Source: Streptomyces sp. NBC_01244 (GTDB taxonomy: Bacteria > Actinomycetota > Actinomycetes > Streptomycetales > Streptomycetaceae). From it: a DNA stretch of 64,000 bases. The position numbers and the translations under genes are program-made. The DNA is taken from assembly GCF_035987325.1 (NCBI RefSeq), contig NZ_CP108490.1, positions 123,537 through 187,536 on the forward strand. Reading direction: 5' to 3'. Below are positions 39,839 to 64,000 of the stretch, piece after piece. How positions within the stretch are numbered: position 1 is the first letter of the stretch; the number at the start of each line of letters is the position of its first letter. Under the pieces are notes generated by a model. It did no database searches, was not told the DNA's origin, and saw only the letters and a list, made by a program, of their open reading frames with translations.

Positions 39839-39888
39839 GTCGTCATCCAATCAGCAGCGCCGGTGCTGAGCGTAGCGATGAACCGGCC

Positions 39889-39935: not shown

Positions 39936-40097
39936 TTGATCGACACTCGGTCATCCCAGCGATCACTCATGGCCGCGGCAGGTGCCGGCGGCTCGACGCC
40001 GGGCTTCCCCGTTCCCCAGCGATTGGCCCCGGTTGGGGCCGCGCAGAGCACCACCGAGATCGTCCACGCCTGTGTCACCTCGAAGGATGCCCCGTGA
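39936..40097 (+). CDS. short peptide at the head of the biosynthetic operon, 53 aa
   Basis: A TTG at 39936 follows GGGAGAGG by five bases and encodes IDTRSSQRSLMAAAGAGGST, then FPVPQRLAPVGAAQSTTEIV and HACVTSKDAP. An ATG at 39969 would give 42 residues but has no ribosome site. The stop overlaps the GTG of the next tiny frame (GTGA). No family is recognised. It may be a leader peptide, a small functional protein or a degenerate reading frame. Confidence 0.35.
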   Translation: MIDTRSSQRSLMAAAGAGGSTPGFPVPQRLAPVGAAQSTTEIVHACVTSKDAP

Positions 40098-40171
40098 AGC
40101 TGACCACCCCCTCCACACGGCAGAACAGCCGGACCGCCTGTCCGGGCTCGGCACGGGCGGCGGCGTCGTGA
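40094..40171 (+). CDS. 25-aa frame linking leader and DUF6624-like gene
   Basis: The GTG at 40094 overlaps the preceding stop and the stop overlaps the GTG of the next gene, both as GTGA. The peptide is MKLTTPSTRQNSRTACPGSA followed by RAAAS. It has a single Cys. The chain of overlaps is the main reason to list it; on its own a frame of this size is weak evidence. Confidence 0.25.
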   Translation: MKLTTPSTRQNSRTACPGSARAAAS

Positions 40172-40752
40172 CCGCCGAGTTCCGTACGCCGGCCCGCCCT
40201 GATCTCGCGCAGGACCTGATCGGCCGTGTCGAGGCCGCAGGAGCGACGTGGCGGGCTGCGGGTCATGAGCGCGAGGCCGCGCCGCAGGATGTCCTGCACG
40301 CGGCCCGGCACAGCATCGCCGCCGACGCACAGGCCCTGCGCCGGATCGCCGCCCAGCTGTGTTCCTGGCCCGGGCGGACGCTGATCGGCGCGGAAGGCAG
40401 CCAGGCGGCCCTGACCATCGCCTTGCACTGTGACCACGACCCGGCCTTCCAAGTCACCCTGCTGCGGATGCTCGCCGAGGCCGTACGCCGCGGCGAGGCG
40501 ACATCGGCGCAGTGGGCGCACCTGCACGACCGGTGCCTGGTGCGCAGCGGGCGTGCCCAGCAGTTCGGGACGCAGTACTGGCTGCGTGAGGGACGGCTCG
40601 AGATGTATCCCGTCGCCGATCCCGAGTCCCTCGGCAAGCGACGGGCCGATGTCAGCCTCCCGCCGCGCGGCGACCTGATCGCCCTGCTGGAGAGACGTCA
40701 CGTTCCGCACAACGGGACGGGCGATGTCACGAACGAAAGGTCTGTGGCGTGA
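40168..40752 (+). CDS. DUF6624-like protein, 194 aa
   Basis: The core GAEGSQAALTIALHCDHDPA, FQVTLLRMLAEAVRRGEATS, QWAHLHDRCLVRSGRAQQFG and TQYWLREGRLEMYPVADPES fits the DUF6624 pattern: Ala and His/Asp after a Gly-rich turn, a DR pair, FGTQ and a final D-P-RR segment. The molecular function is not established for the family. The GTG at 40168 overlaps the frame before it and the stop overlaps the kinase-like gene after it. Confidence 0.6.
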   Translation: MTAEFRTPARPDLAQDLIGRVEAAGATWRAAGHEREAAPQDVLHAARHSIAADAQALRRIAAQLCSWPGRTLIGAEGSQAALTIALHCDHDPAFQVTLLRMLAEAVRRGEATSAQWAHLHDRCLVRSGRAQQFGTQYWLREGRLEMYPVADPESLGKRRADVSLPPRGDLIALLERRHVPHNGTGDVTNERSVA

Positions 40753-41498
40753 ACACCTCCGAGCCGGCGTCAACCGGCCGCGTTGGCCGTTCTCGTGCGC
40801 GGGGACGGGAACTTCGGGTCCTCGTCGACGGCGTCGACATGGCCGGGAAGTCGACCCTGGTGAGGGCCCTGGTCGCCGAGCTGGAAGGGCGCGGCGTCCC
40901 GGCTGTCCGGCACCGGGGCATGCTCGCCGGCCTGCACCCCCTCCAACCACTGCTGCGGCAGCTCTCGTCCGCCCGGCAGCCGGACAGCTGGTGGACGACC
41001 ACCGCGTACGTGATCGGCGGGTTCCTGCTCGACGGGATACTCGTCCACATCTTCCCTCCGCGGCCGCGAGGCCACGTGATCGTCCAGGACGGCTATGGGG
41101 ATCGCACCGTGGCGTTCGGGATGGCCGGCGGGCCCTACCTGGCGGCGGTACTCGCTCTGCGATGGCCTCGCACCTTCGCCCGGTTCGACCTTGCCGTCTT
41201 CCTCCACGCCTCACCCGAAGCACGGGCAGCCCGTCTGGCTCAAGGCCGGGAGCACATCGATGTCCGTGACGAACGCACCGTCGAAGACCAGGCGTTCACC
41301 GACCGGTTCCACGCCTTCCACGTTCAAGGGATGGGCCGCCGCCACGACCAGCTCATGGTGATCGACAGCAGTCTGCGCACGCCGGCCGACATGGCGCGGG
41401 AGATCGCGGACCGCCTGCTCACCGAGCACGCCGTGCCCGGTGCCGGCGCCGGACGCGCCGACACCGCACCGCACCCTGCGCTGAAGGAGCTCACGTGA
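40749..41498 (+). CDS. thymidylate-kinase-like P-loop enzyme, 249 aa
   Basis: The Walker A motif is VDGVDMAGKSTLVRAL near residue 27, in the style of dTMP kinases. Other family features are HVIVQDGYGDRTVAF in the place of the DR(Y/H) segment, LAVFLHASPEARAARL and a Lid-like Arg-rich stretch (EHIDVRDERTVEDQAF). It probably phosphorylates a nucleotide or small-molecule intermediate rather than dTMP, given its place in a biosynthetic operon. Start and stop overlap neighbours by four bases (GTGA), so translation is coupled. Confidence 0.75.
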   Translation: MNTSEPASTGRVGRSRARGRELRVLVDGVDMAGKSTLVRALVAELEGRGVPAVRHRGMLAGLHPLQPLLRQLSSARQPDSWWTTTAYVIGGFLLDGILVHIFPPRPRGHVIVQDGYGDRTVAFGMAGGPYLAAVLALRWPRTFARFDLAVFLHASPEARAARLAQGREHIDVRDERTVEDQAFTDRFHAFHVQGMGRRHDQLMVIDSSLRTPADMAREIADRLLTEHAVPGAGAGRADTAPHPALKELT

Positions 41499-42829
41499 CC
41501 CCTTCCGATCTGTCGTCCGCCCCGCTCGGCGGCCGCGACCGCACATGGCACCCCTGGAGCCCGATCCAGCAGACGCAGCGGCTGATGCTGGTCTCCGGCC
41601 GCGGCTGCCACGTCCGGGACGACCACGGCCGTAACTATCTCGACCTGCGGGCGGGCACCTTGAACGCCACCGTGGGCTACGGCCACCCGGCGGTGGTCGA
41701 AGCGATGCGCGACCAGGCGAGCCGGCTGATGACCTGGGACCTCGCCGAGGTGTCCACGCCTCCGGCGCGACAGCTGGCCGACCGGATCGCGGACCTGCTG
41801 CCTGAGCCGCTGGAGTTCACCCTGTTCTGCAACTCGGGGTCGGAGGCGACCGAGGCTGCGGTGAAGATCGCCCGGATGTGGCACCGCCTTCAGGGGCGCC
41901 CGGAGCGGACCGTGGTGATGTCCTTCGCCGACGGCTACCACGGGGCGACGACCGCGGGCATCGCTGCGACGGCCTCGCCGTTCCGGCGGGAGGGCGCCGG
42001 GCCTCTGCCCGAGGGGTACGCCCACCTGGCCACCCCGCGCTGTGCGGCGTGCGCGGCTGGCGAGACCCACGACGGGTGCCGGGTCCCCGGGGCCGTCGAG
42101 TGGGAGGAGCAGATCCTGGCCGTCGGCCCGCAGTCGGTCGCCGCGGTACTGGTCGAGCCGATCCTCAGCGTGGGCGGGGTCATCGTCCCTGCGGCCGGGG
42201 AGTTGGCCGCGCTGCGCGCCGTGTGCGACCGCTACGGGATCCTGCTGATCGCGGACGAGGTTGCGACCGGGTTCGGCCGCACGGGCCGCATGTTCGGCTT
42301 CGAGCACGACCTCGGCGCCGCCGGTGCGGCTCCGGACATCATCACCACGGCCAAGGGCCTGACCGGCGGGTACGCGCCGCTGGCCGCCGTGACGGTGCGC
42401 GCAGACATCTACGCGGACTTCGCCCGCGACCCGCTGCTGGGCGGACTGCGGCACGGCCACACCACGGGCGGGCATGCGACGGCCTGCGCCGCGGCCCTTG
42501 CTGTCCTGAACATCGTCGAGCACGACAAGCTCGTCCTGGCCGCGGCCGCGCGCGGCACGCAGCTCCTGGACGCGCTGGCTCCGCTGAAGCAGCAGCATGT
42601 GGTGCGGGACGTGCGGGGCCTGGGCCTGCTGATCGGCGTCGAGATGGCCTCGATGGAGCTGGCCGTACTGGTCGCCCGTGCCGCGCAGGAGCAGGGCGTC
42701 CTGATCCGGGCCTTCGGTCCGGTCCTGACCGTAGCCCCTCCACTGATCATCAGCGAGGCGGAGGCCGAGGACGGCGCGCGCACGCTGACGCAGGCGATCT
42801 CCAACGTGAGTGCGGGCGGTGCACGATGA
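41495..42829 (+). CDS. class III PLP-dependent aminotransferase, 444 aa
   Basis: Key motifs: LDLRAGTLNATVGYGHPAVV, FCNSGSEATEAAVKIAR, SFADGYHGATTAGIAATASP, LLIADEVATGFGRTGRMFGF, and the PLP Lys in IITTAKGLTGGYAPLAAV. The HTTGGHATACAAALAVL segment is also typical. Class III enzymes transfer amino groups from or to omega-amines, semialdehydes or keto sugars. Residues about 178-192 include three Cys (PRCAACAAGETHDGC), a feature of some subfamilies. It is coupled to both neighbours, which are a kinase-like enzyme and a nucleotidyltransferase. Confidence 0.9.
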   Translation: MTPSDLSSAPLGGRDRTWHPWSPIQQTQRLMLVSGRGCHVRDDHGRNYLDLRAGTLNATVGYGHPAVVEAMRDQASRLMTWDLAEVSTPPARQLADRIADLLPEPLEFTLFCNSGSEATEAAVKIARMWHRLQGRPERTVVMSFADGYHGATTAGIAATASPFRREGAGPLPEGYAHLATPRCAACAAGETHDGCRVPGAVEWEEQILAVGPQSVAAVLVEPILSVGGVIVPAAGELAALRAVCDRYGILLIADEVATGFGRTGRMFGFEHDLGAAGAAPDIITTAKGLTGGYAPLAAVTVRADIYADFARDPLLGGLRHGHTTGGHATACAAALAVLNIVEHDKLVLAAAARGTQLLDALAPLKQQHVVRDVRGLGLLIGVEMASMELAVLVARAAQEQGVLIRAFGPVLTVAPPLIISEAEAEDGARTLTQAISNVSAGGAR

Positions 42830-43575
42830 CCGGGATCCGCGACACCGTGATCCTCCCGCTGGCGGGTCGTGGTTCCCGGCTGGGACTGCCCACGCCGAAA
42901 GAGCTGCTGCCGATCGGGCCGGGCCGCGTCGCCCTGGACGACACCCTGGATCTGCTGGCGCCGCACGCGGGCCGGCTGCGGCTCGTCGCGGTCCTCGGGG
43001 AGGACCGGGAGCCGACCGCGCGTCACCTGGAGCGCCGCTGTCTCGAGATGAAGCTGCCGCTCGCGGTGGTCCGGCAGGACCCGGCCCTGCCGGAGTCGAC
43101 AGGCGCGGTCCTGGGCGCTGCGCCCTGGTACGGGCCCGCGAACCTGGTCCTCCTCGCCGACCAGGTTCTGCACGCCCCGGCCCCGACGGCTGTCGGTAAG
43201 GCCCTGGACCTGATCCACGCCGGACAAGAGTCGGTGTTCCTGGCCTCCATGGAGGACGACGCCGAGCGCCTGGCCGCGGACGGGTCCCTTCACGTCGCGC
43301 GGGACGCGGGCGGGTTGCTGCGGGTCACCGACTTCGCCGACAAGCCCGGCCTGTCGGGCGTGGAGCGGTTCAACGCGGTCTGGTTCGGCTACGCCTTCGC
43401 CCCCAGCGCGGCGCAAGAGTTCGTCGGCGCGCTGCACCAGGCGACCCTCGGCCAGGCCGAGCGCCCGCACCAGCTGGACGCCGTTCTTCGGGCGGCGGCC
43501 GTCGAGGTCGGTCCGTTCACCGACCTGGGAACGTGGCCCGCGGTCACCGCTCACTGGACGGGGGCCTCCTCATGA
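42826..43575 (+). CDS. sugar-type nucleotidyltransferase, 249 aa
   Basis: The N-terminal loop ILPLAGRGSRLGLPTPKELL is the GxGTRxxPxTxxxPK signature of NTP transferases, here shortened (G-R-G-S-R-L). LVLLADQVLHAPAPT matches the metal-binding Asp region. The family activates sugar phosphates or polyols as NDP or CDP derivatives. Next to a GT-B glycosyltransferase and an aminotransferase, it may supply an activated (amino) sugar. The ATG overlaps the aminotransferase stop. Confidence 0.8.
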   Translation: MTGIRDTVILPLAGRGSRLGLPTPKELLPIGPGRVALDDTLDLLAPHAGRLRLVAVLGEDREPTARHLERRCLEMKLPLAVVRQDPALPESTGAVLGAAPWYGPANLVLLADQVLHAPAPTAVGKALDLIHAGQESVFLASMEDDAERLAADGSLHVARDAGGLLRVTDFADKPGLSGVERFNAVWFGYAFAPSAAQEFVGALHQATLGQAERPHQLDAVLRAAAVEVGPFTDLGTWPAVTAHWTGASS

Positions 43576-44813
43576 GCCGGATCGGGATCCTCGCCGGGCC
43601 GTACCCGGTCGATGACCAGCTCGGCGGGATCGGACTGCGCCTATGGGAGATCGCCCAGGTCCTCGCCGACGCCGGCCACGAGGTCACCGTCTGCGCACCG
43701 CGCCCTTCGGCGTTCACCCACCCGGGTGTCACCGTGGTCGCCGGACGGCCGGAGGAGGTCGCCGCGTCCAGCGATGCGCTGATCAGCACCGACCTGCCCG
43801 ACACGGCAGTCCTGCTGGCCGCCTACGAGAGCGGCACGCTGCTGGCGGTGGAGAACGCGCCGCCCATCGAGCACCTCCACTTCGACTCCTTCGCCGGAGC
43901 TGACGCGGACGCCCTGTACCGGGACACGGTCGCGCGATGGCGGCTTCAGCTGCTCCTCGCCGACCATCTGCTGGTCCGCTCGGAGGCGGAGCGCGCCTCG
44001 ACGCTGGGCGCTCTGGTCGCGGCGGGCAGGATGTCGGCTCTGCACCACAGGGCCGGCGCCGACTTGGCGGGCCTGGTGAGCCTGGTGCCGATCGGCTACA
44101 ACCGGCACTCCCTCCAAGCGGCCGACGCCGCCGCCGTGCGCGAGGAGGGGGTGTGCGAGCTGCTGTGGAACGGCGGCGTGTGGGACTACTGCCACCCCTC
44201 CCCCGTCCTGCACGCGCTCGCGGTGGATCGCACCAGCGGCTTCACGCTGCGGCTGCTGTACGCGCCGCCGCCCGGCCGGCTCGAACCGCTGCTCGCCCAG
44301 GCCGCCGAACTCGGCGTGGAAGACCGGCTGATCCTGCCAGACGGTCCGGTGGCGCACCGGGCGCGGGACGGGTGGGTGAAGGCCGCCCGCGCCGTGGTGA
44401 TCACCGGCGGGCGGACGGCGGAGAACATGACCTGCCACCGGCTTCGGCTGCGTGATGCCGCCCTGTACCGGCTGCCTGTGGTCGTCGACGGTTACGGCGC
44501 CACCGGCGACGTGGTCGCCGCGCTCGGGATCGGCCCGGTCGTCGACCCCGACCACCCCCAGGCCCTGGCCGCCGCGCTGCGCCGGGCGGTTGCCGACGGC
44601 CCGGACCGGGCGCGCTACCTCGACGCCCTGGATGACGCTCGCAGCCCCCGCCGGGGCCGGTTCGCCCTGGAGCGGCATCTCAACCCGCTCCTGGCGCTGC
44701 TGGAGTCCGGGCGCCGGGCCCCGGACCGCACTGAGCGCCACCACCTGGACACCATCCACGCCCTGCTCACCCAGCACCCGGGACTGCGCGAGCAGGCCCC
44801 GGCCGTGATCTGA
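43572..44813 (+). CDS. GT-B-type glycosyltransferase, 413 aa
   Basis: The N-terminus RIGILAGPYPVDDQLGGIGL, RLWEIAQVLADAGHEVTVCA has the Gly-rich start of GT4-like glycosyltransferases. Later segments (LVPIGYNRHSL, CELLWNGGVWDYCHPSPVLH, RLILPDGPVAHRARDGWVK, RLPVVVDGYGATGDVVAALG) correspond to the C-terminal Rossmann domain and donor site. An E-x7-E motif is not obvious. It probably attaches the sugar made by the neighbouring enzymes. It is coupled by overlap to the nucleotidyltransferase gene. Confidence 0.75.
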   Translation: MSRIGILAGPYPVDDQLGGIGLRLWEIAQVLADAGHEVTVCAPRPSAFTHPGVTVVAGRPEEVAASSDALISTDLPDTAVLLAAYESGTLLAVENAPPIEHLHFDSFAGADADALYRDTVARWRLQLLLADHLLVRSEAERASTLGALVAAGRMSALHHRAGADLAGLVSLVPIGYNRHSLQAADAAAVREEGVCELLWNGGVWDYCHPSPVLHALAVDRTSGFTLRLLYAPPPGRLEPLLAQAAELGVEDRLILPDGPVAHRARDGWVKAARAVVITGGRTAENMTCHRLRLRDAALYRLPVVVDGYGATGDVVAALGIGPVVDPDHPQALAAALRRAVADGPDRARYLDALDDARSPRRGRFALERHLNPLLALLESGRRAPDRTERHHLDTIHALLTQHPGLREQAPAVI

Positions 44814-44839
44814 CCCTCGCCTGCGGAAGGACCGCGCTC

Positions 44840-45700
44840 ATGCCCACCCCGCTCATCACCCGGACCGCCACCGATGTCCGGCAGATGCCCGCCTTCTCCA
44901 CCACCCCCGCCCCGCCGATCGAGGCCACCGCCTGGAACCTGCCGGACACCACCGTGCGGCAGCTCGTCGCCGACAGCTACCAGCGCCGCGGGTACGCCAT
45001 CGTGCACGTGCCCGGTGTCGTGCCCTGCGCCGAGGACCTGCGGAAGCTGTCCGCCGCGCTGCAGCTGGGCGAGGTGTTCACCCCGCCTCTGTACACCGCG
45101 AGCAGCCACACCACCGCCTCCGGCGTCAGCCAGCTCACCGCGGCGTCCGGAGGCGACCACCCCTTCCAGGACCGGGCCGGACAGAACATCCACTGCGACG
45201 GCACGCTCCAGGCCCTCGGCCAGATCCGCACCACGATCATGCTGTGCGTGAGCGCGGCGGCCAACGGCGGCGTCTCCTACCTGGTCAACCTCGTGGACGC
45301 CTACGCCGACCTGCGCCGCGTGGACCCGGAGGCCGCCGAGCAGCTCGCCCACGCGACCGCCCTCGTGCGGACCTCCACGTTCGCCTCCGGGCACTCCACG
45401 GCAGGGCCGGCCTTCGCCCGGGAGAACGGCGGTTCCTGGACCACCCGCTACAGCCGGACGGCCACCGACTCCTACCACCCCACCGCCGGTGGTGAGGCCG
45501 CCATGGAGCGGGCCCTGGCGTTCCTCGACGCCGCGGCCCAGGCGGGCAGCGCCTTCCGCAGCGAGTTCACCCTCAGGGCGGGCCAGGCCCTGGTCCTGGC
45601 CAACGACCGCCTGGGGCACGGCCGTACTCCGTTCCATGACGACCCGAGCGCCCCGCGCCTGCTGCTGCGCGCCCTGTTCACCCTCCGCCCGCTCGCGTGA
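44840..45700 (+). CDS. Fe(II)/2-oxoglutarate-dependent oxygenase, clavaminate-synthase-like, 286 aa
   Basis: Iron ligands are visible as the HxD motif in GQNIHCDGTLQALGQ near residue 118 and a distal His in NDRLGHGRTPFHDD near 256; the 2-oxoglutarate-binding Arg follows in APRLLLRALFTLRPL. The overall size and the GYAIVHVPGVVPCAEDLRKL start match the TauD/CAS-like group, which hydroxylates or desaturates amino acids and related small molecules. It has its own gap of 26 bp before the ATG, with GGAAGGA upstream. Confidence 0.82.
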   Translation: MPTPLITRTATDVRQMPAFSTTPAPPIEATAWNLPDTTVRQLVADSYQRRGYAIVHVPGVVPCAEDLRKLSAALQLGEVFTPPLYTASSHTTASGVSQLTAASGGDHPFQDRAGQNIHCDGTLQALGQIRTTIMLCVSAAANGGVSYLVNLVDAYADLRRVDPEAAEQLAHATALVRTSTFASGHSTAGPAFARENGGSWTTRYSRTATDSYHPTAGGEAAMERALAFLDAAAQAGSAFRSEFTLRAGQALVLANDRLGHGRTPFHDDPSAPRLLLRALFTLRPLA

Positions 45701-45725
45701 TCCGACACCGTTAGGACTCCAGGCC

Positions 45726-47051
45726 ATGACCCTGCCCGTTCCCAGCGGAGCCGACCTGCTGACCCGCAGCCTCGACGTGCTGCGCACCCACCAGGAGCGC
45801 TCCGAGCGCACCCTCAGCCTCATCCCGGCCGAGAACATCATGACGCCGCTCGCCCGGCTGCCCTTCCTCGCCGACCTCGCCGCCCGCTACATGTTCGACG
45901 AGCACACGGACCCGGCCGTCGGCGACTGGCGTTTCCCCGCCGGCAAGGAGGCCGCCTGGCTGGAGACCGGCCTCACGGTCCCGCTGCTGCGCCACCTGAC
46001 CGGCGCCGCCACCGTGAACGTCCGGCCCCTGTCGGGGCTCCACGCGATGCAGATGGTCCTCGCCGGGCTCGGCGGGCCGCCCGGCAGCACGATCGCCTGC
46101 CTCGCCCCCGGCCAGGGCGGGCACTACGCCACCGCGGACATCGCACGGCAGCTGGGCTACACCCCCGTCCACCTCCCCGGACGCGGCATGCACAACCTGG
46201 ACACGAAGGAGCTCGCTGGCTTCCTGAGCAAGCATCGCCCGAGCCTGGTCTACGTCGACCAGTGCCACGCCCTCACCAGCCTCGACGTCACCCCGCTCGC
46301 CGACGCCATTAAGTACGGCGGCTTGCCCACGGTCCTGCACGTGGACATCTCCCACACCCTCGGCCTGGTCCTCGGCGGCGCGCTGCCCAACCCGCTCGCC
46401 TGCGGGGCGGACAGTCTCTCGGCGTCCACCCACAAGTCCTTCCCCGGACCGCAGAAGGGCATCATCGCCACCCGCACCGCCGCCACCGGGCAGCGGATCA
46501 CGCAGATCCAGCCCCGCGCGGTGTCCAACCACCACTTCGCCGCGGTCGCCGCCCTCGGCCTCTCCCTGGCCGCCTTCGCCGACCGTGCGGGCACGTACGC
46601 ACAGGCCGTCATCGCCAACGCACGGATGCTGGGCAAGGAACTCGCCCACAGCGGATGGAGCCTGGCAGGCTCGGAGTTCGGCTACACGCGCACCCACCAG
46701 CTGTGGGTCACCCACACCCCCCAGCCCACCGCCCGGGCCGCCGCCGCCCGCCTGTACGAGGCGGGCCTGCACGTGAACTGGCTCACCGACCTGCCCGTGG
46801 GCCCGGCGCTGCGCCTGGGGCTGGCTGAGGCGACATGGCTGGGGCTCGGCGCCCAGGACATGCGGCGCCTGGCGCAGATCATGACCGCCGCGGCCGACGA
46901 GAGCGTCCCGCTGTCGGAACTCGCCGACCGGACCGCCGCGTTGCGGCCCGGCCCCGGCCGCCGCTACCCGTTCGCGCCCCGCCTTGAAGGGGACGCCGCC
47001 CGAACGGCGGGCGCCGGCGTGCAGGCTGTTCTCGCCGAGGTGACGTCATGA
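45726..47051 (+). CDS. SHMT-like PLP enzyme (hydroxymethyltransferase/aldolase type), 441 aa
   Basis: Serine hydroxymethyltransferase motifs are present: LSLIPAENIMTPLARLPFLA, VNVRPLSGLHAMQMVLAGLG, VLHVDISHTLGLVLGGALPN, and the PLP Lys in LSASTHKSFPGPQKGIIATR. In antibiotic pathways such proteins often act as threonine aldolases or transaldolases, or transfer one-carbon units, making beta-hydroxy amino acids. The C-terminal GPALRLGLAEATWLGLGAQD is also family-like. It is followed by a coupled aminotransferase (ATGA overlap). Confidence 0.85.
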   Translation: MTLPVPSGADLLTRSLDVLRTHQERSERTLSLIPAENIMTPLARLPFLADLAARYMFDEHTDPAVGDWRFPAGKEAAWLETGLTVPLLRHLTGAATVNVRPLSGLHAMQMVLAGLGGPPGSTIACLAPGQGGHYATADIARQLGYTPVHLPGRGMHNLDTKELAGFLSKHRPSLVYVDQCHALTSLDVTPLADAIKYGGLPTVLHVDISHTLGLVLGGALPNPLACGADSLSASTHKSFPGPQKGIIATRTAATGQRITQIQPRAVSNHHFAAVAALGLSLAAFADRAGTYAQAVIANARMLGKELAHSGWSLAGSEFGYTRTHQLWVTHTPQPTARAAAARLYEAGLHVNWLTDLPVGPALRLGLAEATWLGLGAQDMRRLAQIMTAAADESVPLSELADRTAALRPGPGRRYPFAPRLEGDAARTAGAGVQAVLAEVTS

Positions 47052-48379
47052 GCTCGCTGATCGCTCCCGTGAGCGAGGACGCGCCGTGCGTGGCCGTCTA
47101 CCGCGAACTGCGCGACGGGGTCTCCGCGGCCAGCGCGCAGATCGGGTACGGCTACAACCTGTTCCCCACCGCCCCGGCCACGCACCGCTTCCTGCACCGG
47201 GCCCTGACCGTCTGCGCGCGGGCCGGCCGCCTCCACGAGTACGGCACCGCCGACGACGCCCGCGACCGCGCCCTGGCCGCCGCGCTGGCAGGCGCCTACC
47301 TGGGCGTCGACCTGGAGGGCGAGCAGGTCATCTTCACCAACGGCGCCACCGAAGGGATCGGGCTGGTCACCAGGTGGCTGGCCGCGTGCGACGCCGGACT
47401 GGTGCTGCCGGCGCCCTGCTACTACGCCTTCGAGCAGACCCCGCGCCGGTGGGGCGGTACGGTCCTGGGCCGCTACCGGCACGACGGTGCCGTCCATCCC
47501 ACCGGGGAGAGCGCCTCCCACACCGCGGTGGTGGAGATCTTCCCCAACGGCGTCACCGGCACCTTGTACACCCCGCCGCCGGTCGCGGCCGACTTCCGGG
47601 TCGTCGACGTCGTCTTCCTCGCCGGAGGCACCGGAGCCGACCCGCACCAGGTCACCGACCGCGTCCGCACCACCCTGTCCGGCCAGGTGTCGGACACCGC
47701 CGTCCTCATGACCCCGTCGAAGGACCTGTGCATCCCCGGGGTCCGGCCCGGCCTGCTGATCAGCGGCCACACCTCCCTCCTCGACGCGGTCCGTGACGAC
47801 CTCTTCGACCGCACCGCCTCCTCCAACCCGCTCACCGGACAGGTCGTCCTGCTCTACCTGACGATCCTGCTGCTCGCCGAAGCCGCTCACGACCGCGACA
47901 GCACCGCGTTCTCCCGCCGCCACCAGTGGATCGCACGCCAGTACGCGAACCACCGGGTCCTCACCGTCCCCTCCGAGGCGGACTGCCGCGCCATCGTCGA
48001 GCACCTGGACGCCATGAGCGCGCACTTCGCCCGCGGGTTCGACCTGCTGACCGGGCACGCCGGTGACCTCCTGGAGACCGGCGACCACCTTCGCCCGGTC
48101 TCCGGATACTCGCTGCTGCCCCGCCTCGTCGCCGACCTGGACCACCCCGACGAGACCGTCGCCTGGGTCAACGCCGTCGGCCGGCAGTTCGACCTCAAGG
48201 TCAACGCGCACCTCCTCTTCGGTGGCACCAAGGAGTCCTGGCAGCACCTGTACCCCGGGCCGCCGCGCCTGCGCGTCAACGTCTCCGTCCCGCACGAGGA
48301 CCTGCTGCACACCCTCGGCCTTCTGCGCGAGGCGCACCGCGGCGTCGTCGTGCCGGCGCCCCGGAAGGAGGCGGCGTAG
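47048..48379 (+). CDS. class I/II aminotransferase-fold PLP enzyme, 443 aa
   Basis: IFTNGATEGIGLVTRWLA resembles the phosphate-binding NGATE motif, APCYYAFEQTPRRWGG the aromatic ring-stacking region, and AVLMTPSKDLCIPGVRPGLL carries the likely PLP Lys in the S-K-D-x(n)-G-x-R-x-G signature. The conserved Asp region is VVDVVFLAGGTG. Substrate is unknown; with an SHMT-like partner it might process an amino acid side chain. Its start overlaps the SHMT-like stop, and the next gene starts directly after its stop. Confidence 0.75.
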   Translation: MSSLIAPVSEDAPCVAVYRELRDGVSAASAQIGYGYNLFPTAPATHRFLHRALTVCARAGRLHEYGTADDARDRALAAALAGAYLGVDLEGEQVIFTNGATEGIGLVTRWLAACDAGLVLPAPCYYAFEQTPRRWGGTVLGRYRHDGAVHPTGESASHTAVVEIFPNGVTGTLYTPPPVAADFRVVDVVFLAGGTGADPHQVTDRVRTTLSGQVSDTAVLMTPSKDLCIPGVRPGLLISGHTSLLDAVRDDLFDRTASSNPLTGQVVLLYLTILLLAEAAHDRDSTAFSRRHQWIARQYANHRVLTVPSEADCRAIVEHLDAMSAHFARGFDLLTGHAGDLLETGDHLRPVSGYSLLPRLVADLDHPDETVAWVNAVGRQFDLKVNAHLLFGGTKESWQHLYPGPPRLRVNVSVPHEDLLHTLGLLREAHRGVVVPAPRKEAA

Positions 48380-54170: not shown

Positions 54171-54227
54171 CCGGCCCGGCCGGACACCGGCCGGGGGTCA
54201 GCACCGAGAACACAAGAGAGACACACC

Positions 54228-56850: not shown

Positions 56851-56895
56851 CATGCGTGCGACCGAGATTCATCGATGGCGGACGAGCGCGGGAGA

Positions 56896-57008: not shown

Positions 57009-57137
57009 GTTCTTCTCTGCGCACCGGTGACCTGCGCGGATATACGCGCGTCCCGCCAGCTACCGTACTCGGTCACAACGCGGACCATCCTGTCGCGGAA
57101 CCATGCCGAGAGGGCCCAGCAGGAGCAACGGCCTTGG

Positions 57138-57698
57138 TCAGTCTGCCTGGGCTGGAGCACTGATCGCTCGGCCGATGCGTGGCCCGACGAGACGCTCCGC
57201 CAGATCCAGCGGGTACCAGGCGGCGCCGGTCACCTCGGATTCCTGGATACGTCCGACCTCGGCTCCGTCCGTCGCGAAGGCATAGCCGATGTCCAGGTGA
57301 TAGTGCTCCGGCTCGCCCTTCTCGGGCCTGGCCGGCACCTGGCCGAACTCGACGTACGCGGGCATCGCCGAGACCGGGACGACCTGTGTGGGGTCGATGC
57401 CCGTCTCCTCCGAGAGCTCCCGCAGGGCCGCATCAAGCAGCGTCCCGTCGGTCGGCTCGAGATGCCCGCCTGGCTGCAAAGTGAGGCCGTAGGCCCGATG
57501 CTCAATCAGCAAGACCTCGGCACCTCCCCGGACCAAGAGCGCGCCGGCGGTCACGTGCACGGGGAAGGTTCGCCGCGAGGCGAACCCGTGGCCTTCATCC
57601 AGCAAGCGAAGCGGTTCGGCCAGCTGCCCGGCCTCGTCGGGGTGGAGCTCCAGGTAAGCGGCGAGTACGCCCACGATCGCGGAGTCAGTGATCGCCAC
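57138..57698 (-). CDS. Nudix hydrolase, 186 aa
   Basis: The Nudix box is GGHLEPTDGTLLDAALRELS, then EETGID, near residues 78-103; the first acidic position is Asp instead of the usual Glu. Upstream AGALLVRGGAEVLLIEHRAY is the expected beta-strand. The family cleaves nucleoside diphosphates linked to another group. It is on the minus strand, opposite to the operon. It may be part of the cluster, releasing or detoxifying a nucleotide-linked intermediate, or only a neighbour. Confidence 0.85.
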   Translation of the reverse strand: MAITDSAIVGVLAAYLELHPDEAGQLAEPLRLLDEGHGFASRRTFPVHVTAGALLVRGGAEVLLIEHRAYGLTLQPGGHLEPTDGTLLDAALRELSEETGIDPTQVVPVSAMPAYVEFGQVPARPEKGEPEHYHLDIGYAFATDGAEVGRIQESEVTGAAWYPLDLAERLVGPRIGRAISAPAQAD

Positions 57699-58066: not shown

Positions 58067-59956
58067 ATGACCACGTCCGAAGCACACAGCAAACCGGCCA
58101 GTGCTCCGCCTCCGCCGCCTCCGGCGGAGATCACCTACAGCGGGCAGTACTCCGTCAATCCGCTCGCCGAGGTCTCCTTCCGGAAGATGTGCGCCACGCT
58201 TCCGTCGGTCCTGGCCCGGATCGGCCGCCTGTCGTGGCAGACCGACCGGCAGGCCGTACGGCTCCTGATCGGGTGCCAGGTCGTCACGGGCGTATCCGCC
58301 GCAGTCCTGCTGGCCGCCACCGCCCGCGCGATGGGACCCGTACTCGGCGCCGGAAGCGCCGGCGACCGTCTCCACGGGGCGCTGCCCGCGCTGCTCGTGG
58401 TCGCGCTCGCCGCCACGATGAACCGCGTCGCGGGGGCCGTGGCCACGTACGCCGGGCGGCGGATCACCCCGCTGCTGACCTCGGAGACCGACAGTGCCCT
58501 GGTCGAGGCGGTCTGCCGGGTCGAGGCCTCCGCCTACGCCGGGGACGGCTTCTCCGACCGGCAAGAGGCGGCCGAGATGGGGGTGGTGCGCACCCACGTG
58601 ATGGTCACCGACGCCCAGCGCTTCATGTCCTCGCTGATCCGCCTGGTCACCGCGGGCAGCGTCCTGTCGGTGCTCAACGTCATGATGTTGCCCCTGCTGC
58701 TCCTGGCCGTGCTCCCCGCCGGCATCGGCGCCGTGCTCACTGCCCGTGTCGACTACGAGATCCACTACTCGAACATCAGCGACCGCAACGTGCGCGGGAT
58801 GATGCGCTGGTGGGCCACCGCATCCCAGTATGGGGACGAGGTCCGCGCCAACTCGATGACGGACTACCTCGTCTACTGGTATCGGGCCCTGTCCGACCGG
58901 TGTGACCGGCGGAACCTGGCCGCCGCACCGCGGACCCTGCGGATCTCCCTGCTGTCCGCGCTGGCCGGCGGCGTCTTCCTCCTCGCGACGTGGGGCGCAC
59001 TGGCCTGGCTCGCCGTGACCGGCCGGATCGAACCCGCCATCGCCGCCACGGCCGTCATCGCCGTCCAGGCCGCGCTCGCCGCCCTGTCCCAGGTCATCAT
59101 CAACGGCGCCGCGATCTTCCACACCAGCCTGTACCTCACCGACATGCAGTCCTTCCTCGACGAGGCCGCCGCCCTTACTCCCCAGCGCGGACCGCACGAG
59201 ATCACCGGCCCGGTCGAGCAGATCCGGCTCGACGAGGTCGCCTACCAGTACCCGGGCAAGGACAAGCCCGCGGTCGACGGCGTCTCCCTCACCCTGGAGC
59301 GAGGCCAGATCCTCGCAATCGTCGGAGCGAACGGCTCCGGGAAGTCCACCCTGACGCGACTGATCACCGGGATCTACCTCAGTGACAAAGGCAGGGTCAC
59401 CTGGAACGGAACCGACCTCGCCGACACCGACCCGGCCACGGTCTGGCGCCTGACCGGTCTGGTGCCGCAGGAATTCGCCAAGTGGCCGTGGCGGGTGCGC
59501 GAGAACATCACCCTCGGCCAGCCCCGCACCCACGACGACGGCCCCGTGTGGGAGGCCATCGATGCGGTCGGCCTGCGCAAAGCCGTCGAAGACCTCCCCA
59601 ACGGGCTGAACAGCCTCCAGGCCCGCGACATCTGGGGAGGCATCACTTTCTCCGGCGGGGAGTGGCAGCGCGAGGCGTGCGCCCGGGCCCTGTACCGCAA
59701 GCCCGACCTGTTGATCTTGGACGAGCCGACTTCTCAGATGGACCCACGAGGTGAGCACCTGATCTTCGAGCGGATCAAGGCCATCGCCGCCGACCGGATC
59801 ACCATCATGGTCACCCACCGCCTGGAGAACACCCGGATCGCGGACCACATCATCGTGCTCGAAGACGGCCGGATTTCCGAACAGGGCCGCTACGACGATC
59901 TTGTCCACGGCGGCGGGACCTTCGCCGAGCTCCTCGCACTCTCCCAGGACCGCTGA
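58067..59956 (+). CDS. ABC transporter, fused membrane and ATPase domains, 629 aa
   Basis: The N-terminal half has hydrophobic segments (LLIGCQVVTGVSAAVLLAAT, ALPALLVVALAATMNRVAG, VLSVLNVMMLPLLLLAVLPA, GGVFLLATWGALAWLAVTG). The C-terminal ATPase domain has Walker A AIVGANGSGKSTLTRLI, Q-loop LVPQEFAKWPW, signature FSGGEWQREACA, Walker B LLILDEPTSQMDP and switch His in VTHRLENT. The half-transporter layout suggests a homodimeric exporter. A Pro-rich N-terminus precedes the first helix. With the disrupted MFS gene nearby it is likely the main exporter of the product. Confidence 0.9.
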   Translation: MTTSEAHSKPASAPPPPPPAEITYSGQYSVNPLAEVSFRKMCATLPSVLARIGRLSWQTDRQAVRLLIGCQVVTGVSAAVLLAATARAMGPVLGAGSAGDRLHGALPALLVVALAATMNRVAGAVATYAGRRITPLLTSETDSALVEAVCRVEASAYAGDGFSDRQEAAEMGVVRTHVMVTDAQRFMSSLIRLVTAGSVLSVLNVMMLPLLLLAVLPAGIGAVLTARVDYEIHYSNISDRNVRGMMRWWATASQYGDEVRANSMTDYLVYWYRALSDRCDRRNLAAAPRTLRISLLSALAGGVFLLATWGALAWLAVTGRIEPAIAATAVIAVQAALAALSQVIINGAAIFHTSLYLTDMQSFLDEAAALTPQRGPHEITGPVEQIRLDEVAYQYPGKDKPAVDGVSLTLERGQILAIVGANGSGKSTLTRLITGIYLSDKGRVTWNGTDLADTDPATVWRLTGLVPQEFAKWPWRVRENITLGQPRTHDDGPVWEAIDAVGLRKAVEDLPNGLNSLQARDIWGGITFSGGEWQREACARALYRKPDLLILDEPTSQMDPRGEHLIFERIKAIAADRITIMVTHRLENTRIADHIIVLEDGRISEQGRYDDLVHGGGTFAELLALSQDR

Positions 59957-60098
59957 CCGGCCTCACCTCCGCCAGACCCGCCGTCGGCCAACGCGGCCAG
60001 CCCAACAAGGAGAACTCGTTGCTCCCCCACCTCGCCACACCCCACGGCCCTGCGTCCTGCCCTTCGGGCTCCGAGTGCTCGAGTAGGGGGTCCGCCCG

Positions 60099-60983
60099 AT
60101 GAGGCAGCCGAAGCCGCTGCCGGCGGCGGTGCGGGGGTGGGCGGAGCAGCGGATCGGGCCCATCGTCTCCGTCCGGGACGCCTCGCACGACTGGGACCGT
60201 TCCCGGGTGTGGGAGGTGGAGGGCGCGGACGGCGTGCACCGGTACGTGAAGGTCTCGCCCTCGGTGAAGTTCTTCACCCGTGAGGGCCGCGCGTACAGGC
60301 ATGTCGTCCCCGCCCTCGGCCACAGTCGGGCGCCTCGCCTGATCGACAGCCGGGCCGAGGACCTGGCCCTGCTTCTCTCCGCGGTCCCCGGTGCCCCGGC
60401 GAAGGAGCTCGGCCTGTCCGACAGCGACTGGCGGGCCGTACACCAGCAAGCCGGTGTGCTGTGTGCCCGGCTCCACGAGGCTGGGGAGCTCGGCCGGGCC
60501 GATCGGGTGGAGGCGGAAGCCTCTCTGGAGGCCGCCGCCGACGGGGCGGAGAAGTACTTGGCCCGCGCCGGTGCCCGGCTCACCGACGGCGAGCAGCAGC
60601 TGGTCCGCGACCACGCCGCCCAGCTGCGCCGCGTCGGACCAGTGCCTGTCGGATTTGTCCACGGCGACAACCAACCCAGGAACTGGCTGTTTTCCGACGG
60701 CGTGCTCGCTCTTATCGACTTCGAACGGACTCGGCCTGCCGCCCGGGTCCAGGATCTCGTCATCTTGGCGGTCACCCAATGGGTCGACCATCCGGACCGC
60801 GAGCGGGCGTTCCTCTCGTCCTACGGGCGCGCCCTCAGCGACGCCGAGCGGCATGCCCTGCGCTGCCTGACGGCGCTGGACGCGGTCAACTGCTTGTCCT
60901 GGGGTCCGGACAACGGGGACGAGCTGGTCACGGCCCGGGGCCGGCGGACCCTGGACCGGCTGATGAGGGAGGGCGGGTCGTGA
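60099..60983 (+). CDS. second APH-type phosphotransferase, 294 aa
   Basis: Motifs GFVHGDNQPRNWLFSDGV and LALIDFERTRPAARVQDL identify the kinase catalytic loop and metal-binding Asp. The N-lobe has HRYVKVSPSVKFFTREGRAY with the likely ATP-binding Lys. It is a different subfamily from the APH-type gene at 54779. A possible role is inactivation of the end product inside the producer. Confidence 0.85.
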   Translation: MRQPKPLPAAVRGWAEQRIGPIVSVRDASHDWDRSRVWEVEGADGVHRYVKVSPSVKFFTREGRAYRHVVPALGHSRAPRLIDSRAEDLALLLSAVPGAPAKELGLSDSDWRAVHQQAGVLCARLHEAGELGRADRVEAEASLEAAADGAEKYLARAGARLTDGEQQLVRDHAAQLRRVGPVPVGFVHGDNQPRNWLFSDGVLALIDFERTRPAARVQDLVILAVTQWVDHPDRERAFLSSYGRALSDAERHALRCLTALDAVNCLSWGPDNGDELVTARGRRTLDRLMREGGS

Positions 60984-61029
60984 GCAAGCTTTCCCTGAGC
61001 GTCTGGGGCGTCCGAAGCGGTGGAGGCCG

Positions 61030-62574
61030 GTGACTGCCCCCGCCGAGTTGGCGAAGGCGCCGCGATGGACGTCACGGGCCCTGCGGCTGCTGGTCGCGAG
61101 CGAATGCGCGAGCCTGTCGGGATCGGCGGTCAGCGCCGTCGCGATCCCGACTCTGGCCGTGCTTGTGCTCCACGCCTCCGCCCTCCAGATCGCCGTGCTC
61201 GCCTTCCTCGGACAGCTGCCGAACGCGATCGTCGCGCTCCCCGCGGGCGCTCTCTCGGACCGCCACCGCAAGCGCCCGCAGATGATCGGCGCCGATATCG
61301 CGGCCGCGCTGGCCCTCGCGACCGTCCCGGCCGCGGCCGTGGCCGGCGTGCTCACCATCGGGCAGATGTACGCGGTCGCCGTCGTCCTGGGCATCGCCAA
61401 GATCGTGCACAGCGCGGCTTCGATCAGCTACCTGCCCGTCCTCGTCGAGCCCCGCTACCTCCAGCGCGCTAACGGGCGCCTCGGTGCGGCCTCGTCGGTC
61501 GCCGACAGCCTGGGAAGCAACCTGGGCGCCGCGCTGATCGCCGCCGTCGGCGCGGCCCGCTCGGTGATCGTCGATGCCCTGTCCCACCTCGTCTCGGCCT
61601 TCCTGGTCTGGCGCATCCGCACCCCCGAGCCCGCCACCGTGCGGCCCCAGGGCCGGCGCAGCCTCGCACGGGACATCCGTGAGGGACTGCACTACGTGGC
61701 CGGGCAGCCCACGATCCGTACGGTGATCGCGGCGTTGTCCACGCTCAGCTTCGGGCTGGCGATCATGAACACCTACTGGGCGTACTTCCTCCTCGCCGTT
61801 CTCGCCGTCACCCCGACGGCATTCGGCGTGATCATGGGCGTCGGAGGCGTCGGCAGTCTGGCCGGAGCACTCCTCGCCCCGACGATCGCCTCCCGCATTG
61901 GTATCGGGCCGACGATCATCATCGGATTCGCCGTCAGCCCCCTGACACAGGTGCCCCTCCTGCTCGCCGGGCCCGGCCTTGGCTGGCAGGCCGCCCTCGC
62001 CCTGACCTTGTCCGTACAGCTGTTCTGGGCAACTGCGTCCGGAACGAGTCAACGGTCCCTCCGGCAGACCATTTGCGAGCCCGGCTTCCAGGGGCGGATG
62101 CAAGCCGCCAGCACCACGATGACCGCCGGCATCCGCCCGCTCTGTAGGGTCCACGGATTCGTGAGCAATGTCAGCTGATCATGAGCACTGTCCGAGCAAT
62201 TCCGCGGTTTGGTGAGCAATGGATCTCGTGACCTGCGGCTTCCTCGAAGCGTGCGACCGCGAAGTCCGTACTGGCTGGGCCGGATTGCTCATGATCCGCC
62301 GCCGGACCCTGCCGCCAGCACTGCTCATGACCGCCAACACCGCAGGTCAGGAGCTCGCGGCTGCTCACGAATCCCCGGACCCTACACGCTCGCCGCCGCG
62401 GCCGCCGGCGCCCTGGCCCTCTACCTCGGCGTACGCACCACCCTCACGATCGGCGCGCTCTTCCAACTCATCCCCGTCGCCATCCTGCTCCTCTCCCCTG
62501 TCCGCACCATGCGGGACATGCCCGCCCCGCCCCCGCGCCCAGCCCTGCCCTCCGCCCGCGAAGGATCGCCGTGA
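61030..62574 (+). pseudogene. MFS transporter gene disrupted by a 244-bp MITE
   Basis: Part one (61030-62142) encodes a 12-helix-type major facilitator: LRLLVASECASLSGSAVSAV, LSDRHRKRPQMIGADIAAAL with the loop-2 DRxxRRP-like motif, FGLAIMNTYWAYFLLAVLAV. The frame is broken after TMTAGIRPL. Part two (62392-62574) continues AAAAAGALALYLGVRTTLTI, GALFQLIPVAILLLSPVRTM. Removing the insert and one 5-bp target copy restores a single 431-codon frame, and the end overlaps the next gene by four bases. As read, the insertion leaves a 382-residue product with 16 altered end residues. Confidence 0.8.
62143..62386. mobile_element. MITE-like element, 244 bp, with 5-bp target duplication
   Basis: Terminal inverted repeats of about 27 bp (TGTAGGGTCC then GGATTCGTGAGCA, two or three mismatches) bound the element, and CGCTC is duplicated at 62138-62142 and 62387-62391. 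Inside are several direct and inverted copies of GAGCAATG/GCTCATGA. There is no transposase gene. It therefore moved by a transposase supplied elsewhere. The exact target duplication and intact flanking frame show a fairly recent insertion. Confidence 0.85.
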
Positions 62575-63155
62575 CAACGACCTCGACCTCGACCGCCGCG
62601 TACTGGGACCCCCACTGGGCCCAAGGCCGCCGCTACCGGCAGCTCGACGACACCGAGACCAGGCTGATGGACCAGCGCCTCGGCCCCGGCCGGGGACGGC
62701 CCGCCCTCGACATCGGCTGCGGCGACGGCACCCTGACCCGCCACCTCCACAACCAACTGGGATACCGCACCACCGGCATCGACTGCTCCCCCAGCGCCCT
62801 CGCCCTCGCCGCCGCCCAGGACTCCCCGGAATCCCCCGGGCCGCTGTGGAGACGCTTCGACGTCGGGGCCGACGACCTGACCGCCTTGCCGGAGCCCGCG
62901 TACGCGGTCATCACCTGCCGCCTCGTCTACCGGTGGATCGACGACAAGCCTGCCTTCGTCAACCGAGTCCGCCGCCTCCTGGTACCCGGCGGAACCTTCT
63001 GGGTCGTCGCCGAGATCACCGGCCGCCGGGAGAACAACGACCCGCTCCAAAGCCTCGGCATCAGCCCGGCCGAGGCCGAGATCCTCACCGCGGGCTGGTC
63101 CGTCGTCCGCACCCACGACCTTGACGTACTCCGCTGCTACGCCCTGCGCCCCTGA
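62571..63155 (+). CDS. SAM-dependent methyltransferase, 194 aa
   Basis: Motif I is ALDIGCGDGTLTRHL near residue 45, with GYRTTGIDCSPSALALAAAQ (motif II acidic residue) and LLVPGGTFWVVAEI (motif post III). The protein is a class I methyltransferase of modest size. The GTG overlaps the end of the original MFS frame (GTGA), so it was part of the same operon before the insertion; translation from this start may now depend on the truncated message. Confidence 0.82.
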   Translation: MTTTSTSTAAYWDPHWAQGRRYRQLDDTETRLMDQRLGPGRGRPALDIGCGDGTLTRHLHNQLGYRTTGIDCSPSALALAAAQDSPESPGPLWRRFDVGADDLTALPEPAYAVITCRLVYRWIDDKPAFVNRVRRLLVPGGTFWVVAEITGRRENNDPLQSLGISPAEAEILTAGWSVVRTHDLDVLRCYALRP

Positions 63156-63184
63156 CCCACCCCACCCTCCTGGAGGACACGTTG

Positions 63185-64000
63185 ATGGACATCGAGAAGC
63201 AGACCGCCAAAGTCTGGACGACCTACGGGGCGCACCAGCTCACCGTCCGCCCGGACCTGCCGGAGATCGAGCGGTGGGACTGGGGCGTCGCCGACACCGG
63301 GCCCGGCATCGAGAGCCTCGGGGACGTGGCAGGGCTCCGCATCCTCGACCTCGGCAGCGGAGTGGGCCGACACGCCGCCCGCCTGGCCGCACTGGGCGCC
63401 GACGTCACCGGGGTGGATGCCTCCCCCACCCAGCACGAGCGCGCCGTCACCCGATACCCGACCGCTCCCGGGCTTCGCTTCGTGTGCGCCGACGCCGTCG
63501 ACCACCTGCGGGACGCAACCCCGTACAACCTCATCTACTCCGTCAACGGGCTGCCGTTCCTGGACCCCAGCCGGCTCTTGCCCGTGCTGGGCAATGCCCT
63601 GAAGCCCGGTGGGCGCCTCCTGTTCTCCGCGCTGCACACCACCTCCGCCGGCGCCGGACCTTCCACGGCCGCCACCCCACGCCCGGAGCTCCTGCGACTG
63701 CCCGGCACCGACCAGACCCACCCCGTCCACATGTGGGTCCTGACCACCCAGCTGTGGGAGGACCTCCTGGTCGAGCACGGCCTGACCCTGGAGAAGGCCA
63801 CGGCGATCGACGCGCCGCAGCCGGACAACCAGGCCTCCTACCGGCTCTACGAGGCCCGGCGTCCGCAAAGGGTGGCGAGCCGCCAGCGCACCAGTACTCC
63901 ACCGCCTCCGAACGCGTTCGTGGGGGTCGGCGTGATCGTCCAGGGACCAGATGGTGTCCTGCTGGGCCAGCACCGTCGTGGAACTTTCGAGTTGCCCGGC
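63185..64000 (+). CDS. methyltransferase fused to Nudix domain, cut by window end
   Basis: The ATG at 63185 follows GGAGG. Residues about 1-215 form a methyltransferase (LRILDLGSGVGRHAARLAAL, VTGVDASPTQHERAVTRYP, ALKPGGRLLFSALHTT). After a short Pro linker, from about residue 243, a Nudix domain begins (AFVGVGVIVQGPDGVLLGQH, RRGTFELPG). The frame is open to the last base. The fusion suggests that methylation and cleavage of a nucleotide-linked group act on one intermediate. The Nudix box lies beyond the window. Confidence 0.75.
   Translation, partial: MDIEKQTAKVWTTYGAHQLTVRPDLPEIERWDWGVADTGPGIESLGDVAGLRILDLGSGVGRHAARLAALGADVTGVDASPTQHERAVTRYPTAPGLRFVCADAVDHLRDATPYNLIYSVNGLPFLDPSRLLPVLGNALKPGGRLLFSALHTTSAGAGPSTAATPRPELLRLPGTDQTHPVHMWVLTTQLWEDLLVEHGLTLEKATAIDAPQPDNQASYRLYEARRPQRVASRQRTSTPPPPNAFVGVGVIVQGPDGVLLGQHRRGTFELPG

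Follow-up and report, generated by a model that had tools for sequence, protein, structure and literature searches.

The described gene clusters closest to the operon treated here, which comprises 14 genes at 40168-56850 (+) of a 64-kb stretch of Streptomyces sp. NBC_01244 (the window, which forms the end of a contig of 187,536 bases in a 10-Mb genome), are those for A-90289, caprazamycin and liposidomycin (lip, cpz and lpm) and for muraymycin (mur). The pathway to the aminoribosyl-5'-C-glycyluridine (ADR-GlyU) core of these MraY (translocase I) inhibitors has been laid out for LipL, LipK, LipO, LipP, LipM and LipN (PMC4902027; PMC numbers refer throughout to excerpts of the papers). Cpz15 makes uridine-5'-aldehyde from uridine monophosphate (UMP), and the pathway branches towards caprazamycin through Cpz10 and towards muraymycin through Mur23 (PMC9814697). 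Mur24, LipJ and SphL are pyridoxal 5'-phosphate (PLP) enzymes that transfer the aminocarboxypropyl group of S-adenosylmethionine (SAM) to a substrate amine in a lysine-dependent manner (PMC10491745). In the pseudouridimycin pathway the aldehyde is made by the flavoenzyme SapB, and SapH converts uridine-5'-aldehyde to 5'-amino-5'-deoxyuridine, the same reaction as LipO (PMC10127198).

Judged by homology, the operon probably directs the synthesis of a nucleoside antibiotic built on the ADR-GlyU core. The core is of a known kind; what is new is the combination of genes around it, together with one undescribed family of proteins with a predicted caspase fold. An earlier note on this DNA had called the combination unfamiliar. 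That does not hold for the core, where five genes agree with the published ADR-GlyU set and one more with the LipJ/Mur24 step, and it does hold for the set as a whole, as the free adenylation-carrier didomain (A-PCP), the HAD-methyltransferase fusion and a 633-amino-acid protein (U633) match no described cluster that was found. The product class suggested then, an aminoacylated sugar or nucleoside, is supported in the form of a nucleoside with amino acid parts and can now be narrowed to what is probably the ADR-GlyU type.

Comparison with known clusters

The LipL/LipK/LipO/LipM/LipN logic and a LipJ-family enzyme are common to the operon and the lip, cpz and lpm clusters, and the caprazamycin subgroup has two kinase-like genes (the TmrD-like Cpz27, and Cpz12; PMC9814697), as does the operon. 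The operon differs in holding a single 2-oxoglutarate (2OG) oxygenase, with no second one of the Cpz10/LipG kind, in lacking the phosphorylase LipP, and in possessing the A-PCP, the HAD-methyltransferase fusion and U633; its LipJ-family enzyme is only 38% identical to theirs. None of these three additional proteins is known from the lip and cpz clusters.

Both the muraymycin cluster and a locus on the circular plasmid p1 of Rhodococcus sp. 2G (L036, NZ_CP018064.1 93053-118258) share with the operon a TauD oxygenase, a transaldolase, a class III aminotransferase, a nucleotidyltransferase, a glycosyltransferase, a Mur24-type enzyme and an adenylation domain. In Rhodococcus these are represented by TauD, transaldolase-like, class III aminotransferase, nucleotidyltransferase-like, glycosyltransferase-like, LipJ-like and nonribosomal peptide synthetase (NRPS) proteins, and a TmrB-like kinase and a methyltransferase are shared in addition. 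The p1 locus, which is unstudied and looks like a muraymycin-like ADR-GlyU cluster, differs in its gene order and in encoding an Orn/DAP/Arg-decarboxylase-like protein (sub-threshold Pfam match), a thymidine phosphorylase and a condensation protein. Nine of the 11 core genes defined below have counterparts there (27-34% identity, the methyltransferase being counted against the fused domain), the exceptions being U633 and the APH kinase.

Layout and conservation of the operon

The operon and the regulator-like gene that faces it consist of the following features.

38525-39850 (-): regulator-like gene, divergent from the operon (helix-turn-helix look by eye; sub-threshold TPR match only)
40168-40752 (+): DUF6624 protein, operon gene 1 (PF20329, E 1.9e-19)
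40749-41498 (+): thymidylate-kinase-like P-loop protein (PF02223, E 2e-6)
41495-42829 (+): class III aminotransferase, proposed uridine-5'-aldehyde aminotransferase of SapH/LipO type (best PDB match 7qzj)
42826-43575 (+): sugar nucleotidyltransferase-like protein in the LipM position (only a sub-threshold IspD match)
43572-44813 (+): GT-B glycosyltransferase in the LipN position, proposed ADR transferase (PF13439 below cut-off)
44840-45700 (+): TauD/2OG Fe(II) oxygenase of LipL/Cpz15 type, proposed to convert UMP to uridine-5'-aldehyde (PF02668, E 2e-22)
45726-47051 (+): L-threonine transaldolase like serine hydroxymethyltransferase (SHMT), LipK type, proposed 5'-C-glycyluridine maker (43% identical to the UniProt reference)
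47048-48379 (+): class I aminotransferase-like PLP enzyme, LipJ/Mur24 family, proposed to transfer aminocarboxypropyl from SAM (profile search, Lys225)
48380-50101 (+): stand-alone A-PCP didomain (PF00501, E 9e-63; PF00550; PF13193; carrier Ser531)
50098-52269 (+): HAD phosphatase-like domain (PF00702, residues 5-181) fused to a methyltransferase (PF08241, residues 507-598)
52269-54170 (+): U633, 633 amino acids, outside the Pfam and NCBIfam families (predicted caspase/gingipain-like domain)
54228-54782 (+): TmrB-like P-loop kinase (AAA_33, PF13671), proposed 3''-O-phosphotransferase of Cpz27 type
54779-55663 (+): APH-family kinase 1 (PF01636, E 7e-22)
55660-56850 (+): UshA-like metallophosphoesterase ('5'-nucleotidase'), last operon gene (PF00149, E 2e-5; NF041198 below cut-off)

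Eight of the 13 junctions between operon genes are 4-base overlaps, and the other five lie between an overlap of one base and a gap of 57 bases. All 14 open reading frames (ORFs) are open and were called by a codon-usage gene caller that had been trained on most of the same genes. One operon reaching to position 64000 had been proposed; it ends instead at 56850, where a minus-strand Nudix gene intervenes, separated from its neighbours by 287 and 368 bp, and the transporter, kinase and methyltransferase genes after it are each separately spaced.

The 11 genes from the class III aminotransferase to APH-family kinase 1, in the order listed above, are colinear in all three of the other operons compared, those of plasmid pSCL3 of S. 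clavuligerus DSM 738, S. umbrinus and S. prunicolor NBRC 13075, with 57-77% identity in the best segments. The recurrence of this core, in unchanged order, at three more Streptomyces loci is more than chance would give. The thymidylate-kinase-like gene was present in three of the four loci, including the window (73-74% identity in S. umbrinus and S. prunicolor), and was not found in S. clavuligerus. The pSCL3 operon is faced by a counterpart of the regulator-like gene (64% identity over 432 amino acids, annotated there as hypothetical) and is also flanked by a short DUF6624 gene. The metallophosphoesterase and the genes beyond it lie outside the shared core: the former had a 116-amino-acid match in S. 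umbrinus and was matched neither in the S. clavuligerus stretch nor at the S. prunicolor locus, whose sequence stops about 1.3 kb past the APH gene.

With contigs matched by their length, at least 13, that of the window included, were common to the three homologue lists, which comprised 44 proteins for the class I aminotransferase, 33 for U633 and, for the SHMT-like enzyme, the best 120 of 153. The genera named among these contigs in the protein search were Streptomyces, Embleya, Sphaerisporangium, Streptacidiphilus, Kitasatospora and Peterkaempfera. No published description of this cluster was found in the open-access literature, most subscription papers being outside reach, and a genome-mining paper of 2017, in the excerpt used, gives pSCL3 as a plasmid without an identified secondary-metabolite cluster (PMC5702194). 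Among the loci compared here, which did not include a curated cluster database, the gene order matched only uncharacterised loci; the close match to a characterised cluster that would have spoken against the earlier note was not seen.

Enzymes matching the ADR-GlyU core

As judged by homology, five genes of the operon have counterparts in the Lip pathway: the class III aminotransferase corresponds to LipO, the nucleotidyltransferase to LipM, the glycosyltransferase to LipN, the 2OG oxygenase to LipL and the SHMT-like enzyme to LipK, and the first three types occur together. Compared with PDB sequences, the aminotransferase had 7qzj as its top match at 351 bits, a lead of 95 bits over the runner-up (256 bits). 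This entry is SapH of pseudouridimycin, a nucleoside-5'-aldehyde aminotransferase, which makes SapH the nearest relative among PDB sequences, whereas the place of the flavoenzyme SapB is held here by the TauD enzyme. Trp21 and Lys287 aligned with Trp32 and Lys289 of SapH (chain-numbering offset of 10, counted from the alignment); because the HPW motif is common in this class of enzymes, the Trp alignment says little by itself. The nucleotidyltransferase-like protein was 30% identical over 186 amino acids (E 1e-6) to a protein of the Rhodococcus p1 locus that is itself NTP_transf_3-like below threshold, and the GT-B-like protein was 28-33% identical to proteins in the p1 locus and in two Streptomyces loci, L014 and L037.

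The TauD and transaldolase genes are adjacent, and the conserved ligands and lysine are kept: the TauD His118-x-Asp120 and His260 were found in all six sequences of an alignment that set the window's enzyme beside two further proteins and three from other nucleoside-type loci, and Lys237 is present in the transaldolase. The SHMT-like enzyme scored 165 bits with the fluorothreonine transaldolase model and 155 with the SHMT model, both below the model cut-offs, and was separated from SHMT in a quick tree of 33 sequences with a Shimodaira-Hasegawa-like approximate likelihood ratio test (SH-aLRT) value of 100. It was 43% identical to the UniProt L-threonine:uridine-5'-aldehyde transaldolase (P0184), and its best PDB match was 7k34, recorded as a 'threonine aldolase', which we take to be ObiH.

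A second transaldolase-like gene, 40% identical, is located on the chromosome of the same genome (L018, G000:C1 7170001-7190000). The Streptomyces plasmids carrying L014 (NZ_CP107895.1) and L037 (NZ_CP108509.1) have a transaldolase of the uridine-5'-aldehyde clade together with TauD-like, glycosyltransferase-like, APH and deoxysugar-type genes (from the annotation for L014, recognised by eye for L037) and represent another type of nucleoside cluster.

The LipJ/Mur24-type enzyme

The sixth gene of the core encodes a class I aminotransferase-like enzyme that, by sequence, belongs to the LipJ/Mur24 family. A profile search reached aminotransferases of Streptomyces sp. SANK 60405 (38%), SN-1061M (38%) and NRRL 30471 (34%), which ranked below about 30 closer proteins of 40-100% identity. 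The first two strains are presumably the producers of A-90289 and liposidomycin. NRRL 30471 is the muraymycin strain (PMC4902027). The three proteins, recorded only as 'aminotransferase', were read as LipJ and Mur24. Lys225 was invariant in all 18 aligned sequences, and a quick tree of 24 sequences resolved four clades: LipJ, Mur24, the present operon type and a set from preQ0-like clusters. A full A-90289-type cluster was sought in 392 genomes of the genus and 395 relatives; the LipJ-like matches obtained (E 1e-30) belonged either to this operon type or to three preQ0-like clusters. In a scan of genome contigs one locus came up, that of S. prunicolor.

The preQ0/7-deazaguanine-like clusters with this fourth clade (QueC/D/E-like by eye) are L027 (G349:C35 1-20000), L029/L030 (G015:C1) and L031/L032 (G290:C1). 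They also hold glycosyltransferase-like, HAD-like and RT-like ORFs, and it is possible that their deazapurine product carries an aminocarboxypropyl arm from SAM.

Genes outside the known core

The adenylation code of the A-PCP, anchored by eye on PheA numbering, reads approximately DAWTVGAVD; its last position differs in the orthologues, and the hint of a hydrophobic residue was not relied on. Between the two domains of the HAD-methyltransferase fusion, about residues 200-480 had no Pfam match.

The TmrB-like protein is a small Walker-type kinase (AAA_33) inside a cluster of ADR-GlyU type, resembling Cpz27 by description, and was 34% identical to the kinase-like protein of the Rhodococcus p1 cluster, with the P-loop motif aligned. 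Cpz27, a kinase of Walker type with 24% identity to the tunicamycin-resistance protein TmrD, phosphorylates the 3''-OH of the aminoribose; contrary to earlier reports, the authors hold a self-resistance role of this phosphate to be unlikely, though not excluded (PMC9814697). In genome G224 (L043, G224:C7 84001-104000) an intact TmrB-like kinase, 88% identical, stands beside fragments of U633, and no other core gene was matched in this 20-kb stretch. The retention of the kinase beside the fragments, a single case, fits a protective role.

U633 matched no family in Pfam or NCBIfam. It is predicted to comprise a caspase/gingipain-like domain, helices, zinc-ribbon-like cysteines and a beta-sandwich domain. 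The gingipain/caspase-like fold, predicted for about residues 57-359 and for one distant relative, emerged from a second look at the models with VIA-align; the best 50 Foldseek matches of either model included no caspase-like protein, only beta-sandwich and other unrelated domains. The predicted fold is like that of the clan CD peptidases gingipain, separase and the Craspase TPR-CHAT protein, with 7-18% identity in structural alignments. U633 differs from these in having extra conserved cysteines and in sitting in biosynthetic clusters. Cys267 was present in all 36 sequences, whereas position 203, that of the clan histidine, was His in 25, Asp in eight and Asn in three, so that 11 of the 36 lack the histidine there.

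Relatives of U633 were found in 15 of 150 sampled Streptomyces genomes. Adenylation or amino-acid-ligase proteins were encoded at the same locus in 10 of 13 distant relatives, and proteins with the ligase domain LAL_C2 in eight of the 13 (seven above the Pfam cut-off); these eight are not independent, as L064-L067 are one recurring cluster type and L042, L062 and L063 look alike. A role as a strictly NRPS-linked substitute for condensation was considered and rejected: the first three relatives were all near adenylation genes, but only five of the 13 were overall, so the NRPS link is not strict. A broader proposal, held tentatively and rather unlikely to be right, is that U633 is the founder of an undescribed caspase/gingipain-fold family of small-molecule biosynthesis that forms or breaks amides on carrier-bound or ligase-made aminoacyl groups; in the operon it would replace a condensation domain in passing the amino acid of the A-PCP to an ADR-GlyU nucleoside, giving an uncharacterised class of MraY inhibitor.

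The recurring Streptomyces cluster L064-L067 combines radical-SAM-like and MFS-like genes (by eye), an amino-acid ligase and the U633 relative, with a methyltransferase and a nucleoside-deoxyribosyltransferase-like protein in addition in L065.

Proposed pathway

Homology, conservation and colinearity suggest the following route. The TauD enzyme would oxidize UMP to uridine-5'-aldehyde, and the transaldolase would form glycyluridine by joining this aldehyde with the glycine unit of L-threonine. A second molecule of aldehyde may be converted by the SapH/LipO-type aminotransferase to 5'-amino-5'-deoxyuridine, which a phosphorylase from outside the operon (perhaps a chromosomal DeoA-like enzyme), the nucleotidyltransferase and the glycosyltransferase would turn into the attached aminoribose. 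The LipJ/Mur24-type enzyme would place the aminocarboxypropyl arm of SAM on the glycyl amine, and the methyltransferase domain of the fusion might methylate a nitrogen. A phosphate put on the aminoribose by the TmrB-like kinase, and perhaps by the APH kinase, could keep the compound harmless until its removal by the HAD domain. Finally, the amino acid loaded on the free A-PCP would be added to the nucleoside, possibly with the aid of the caspase-like U633.

Rhodococcus p1 encodes what looks like a Mur23-like decarboxylase, for which tblastn gave no match in the operon; the aminocarboxypropyl arm should therefore keep its carboxylate. As LipP is absent as well, the cluster is called a variant rather than a plain member of the ADR-GlyU group.

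Missing steps and alternative explanations

The observations that weigh against an ADR-GlyU product concern the sugar, the transaldolase and the reach of the comparisons. Searched with two pyrimidine/thymidine phosphorylases (tblastn), neither the window nor the stretches of S. clavuligerus, S. umbrinus and S. prunicolor contained such an enzyme. In the genome of the window, PF00591 matched only on the chromosome, at a cdd-deoA-like pair, which is the best candidate for this step. The nucleotidyltransferase and glycosyltransferase are only about 28-30% identical to their Rhodococcus counterparts, and direct comparison of core enzymes covered LipJ-type proteins and one UniProt transaldolase, without LipL-LipP. 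The lack of a phosphorylase would suit a nucleoside cluster that has the uridine-5'-aldehyde, transaldolase and SAM-arm chemistry and a different amino sugar or none, in which the aminotransferase, nucleotidyltransferase and glycosyltransferase serve another sugar and a phosphorylase is unneeded; related transaldolase, TauD and glycosyltransferase genes do lie beside deoxysugar-type genes in NBC_00467 (annotated) and NBC_01237 (by eye). Yet the aminotransferase is specifically close to SapH, an enzyme of a nucleoside 5'-aldehyde, and the four corresponding genes of the Rhodococcus cluster are accompanied by a phosphorylase, so this explanation was considered unlikely.

The transaldolase was sister to the clade of the UniProt uridine-5'-aldehyde reference and outside it (SH-aLRT 92, short tree search), and the clades that it joined first in the 33-sequence tree contain a protein from NBC_01361 that is linked to an NRPS; its position therefore does not fix the aldehyde substrate. 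LipJ-like enzymes, moreover, occur in preQ0-like clusters without the ADR-GlyU core, so such an enzyme alone is no proof of glycyluridine. An ordinary peptide cluster for a beta-hydroxy amino acid would accommodate the tree, with the transaldolase acting on a non-nucleoside aldehyde, the A-PCP carrying the product and the remaining genes accessory, and the free A-PCP and the amide-ligase links of U633 relatives suit peptide making. It leaves unexplained, however, why one operon should combine a LipJ/Mur24 enzyme and a SapH-like aminotransferase with a TauD enzyme whose relatives lie in other nucleoside-type loci, and was judged very improbable. That the cluster is decayed or silent and has no product is scarcely credible, for although this cluster type decays elsewhere, as in G224, all 14 operon genes are open here and the catalytic residues checked are kept.

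Flanking genes and other features of the window

Right of the operon, the window contains the following genes.

57138-57698 (-): Nudix protein (PF00293, E 4e-16)
58067-59956 (+): ABC exporter (PF00005)
60099-60983 (+): APH-family kinase 2 (PF01636)
61030-62178 (+): MFS transporter (PF07690)
62571-63155 (+): methyltransferase (Pfam)
63185-64000 (+): methyltransferase with the beginning of a Nudix domain behind it, the contig stopping within the fusion (Pfam for the methyltransferase only; Nudix by eye in the translation)

The genes named in the earlier note, from the thymidylate-kinase-like gene to the metallophosphoesterase and including the TmrB-like protein, the two APH kinases and the two Nudix domains (the second by eye), were recovered at the places given there (Pfam/NCBIfam). 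Its inventory had passed over the ABC and MFS transporters and the conserved regulator-like gene just left of the region it described. Its statement that condensation, thioesterase and polyketide genes are missing fits the called genes scanned, which covered the left half of the window only in part and in which no such domain was detected. The ABC exporter had no match in the stretches of the three other operons and is not conserved with the core.

Upstream of the cluster, a phage-type integrase at 32421-33395 (+) is a sign of mobility. No repeat shared by the first and last 6 kb of the contig (C3), as the telomeres of a linear plasmid might have, was detected at E 1e-3. A porphobilinogen deaminase gene, possibly an accessory copy, lies on this small contig at 4821-5777 (+) of the window, and 18777-23039 (-) encodes a 1420-amino-acid protein with trypsin-like, nSTAND1 NTPase and WD40-repeat regions.

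Significance

According to the introduction of a 2022 paper, no MraY inhibitor had by then been approved for clinical use (PMC9814697), and ADR-GlyU nucleosides are among the leads for MraY inhibition. If the assignment is correct, a type of ADR-GlyU-class cluster undescribed in the open-access literature sits in S. clavuligerus, the industrial producer of clavulanic acid. The cluster also lies in S. prunicolor and S. umbrinus and, judged by protein search, in strains of Embleya, Sphaerisporangium, Kitasatospora, Streptacidiphilus and Peterkaempfera, which makes it testable elsewhere, and U633 offers a concrete target for the question of what caspase-fold proteins without a family do.

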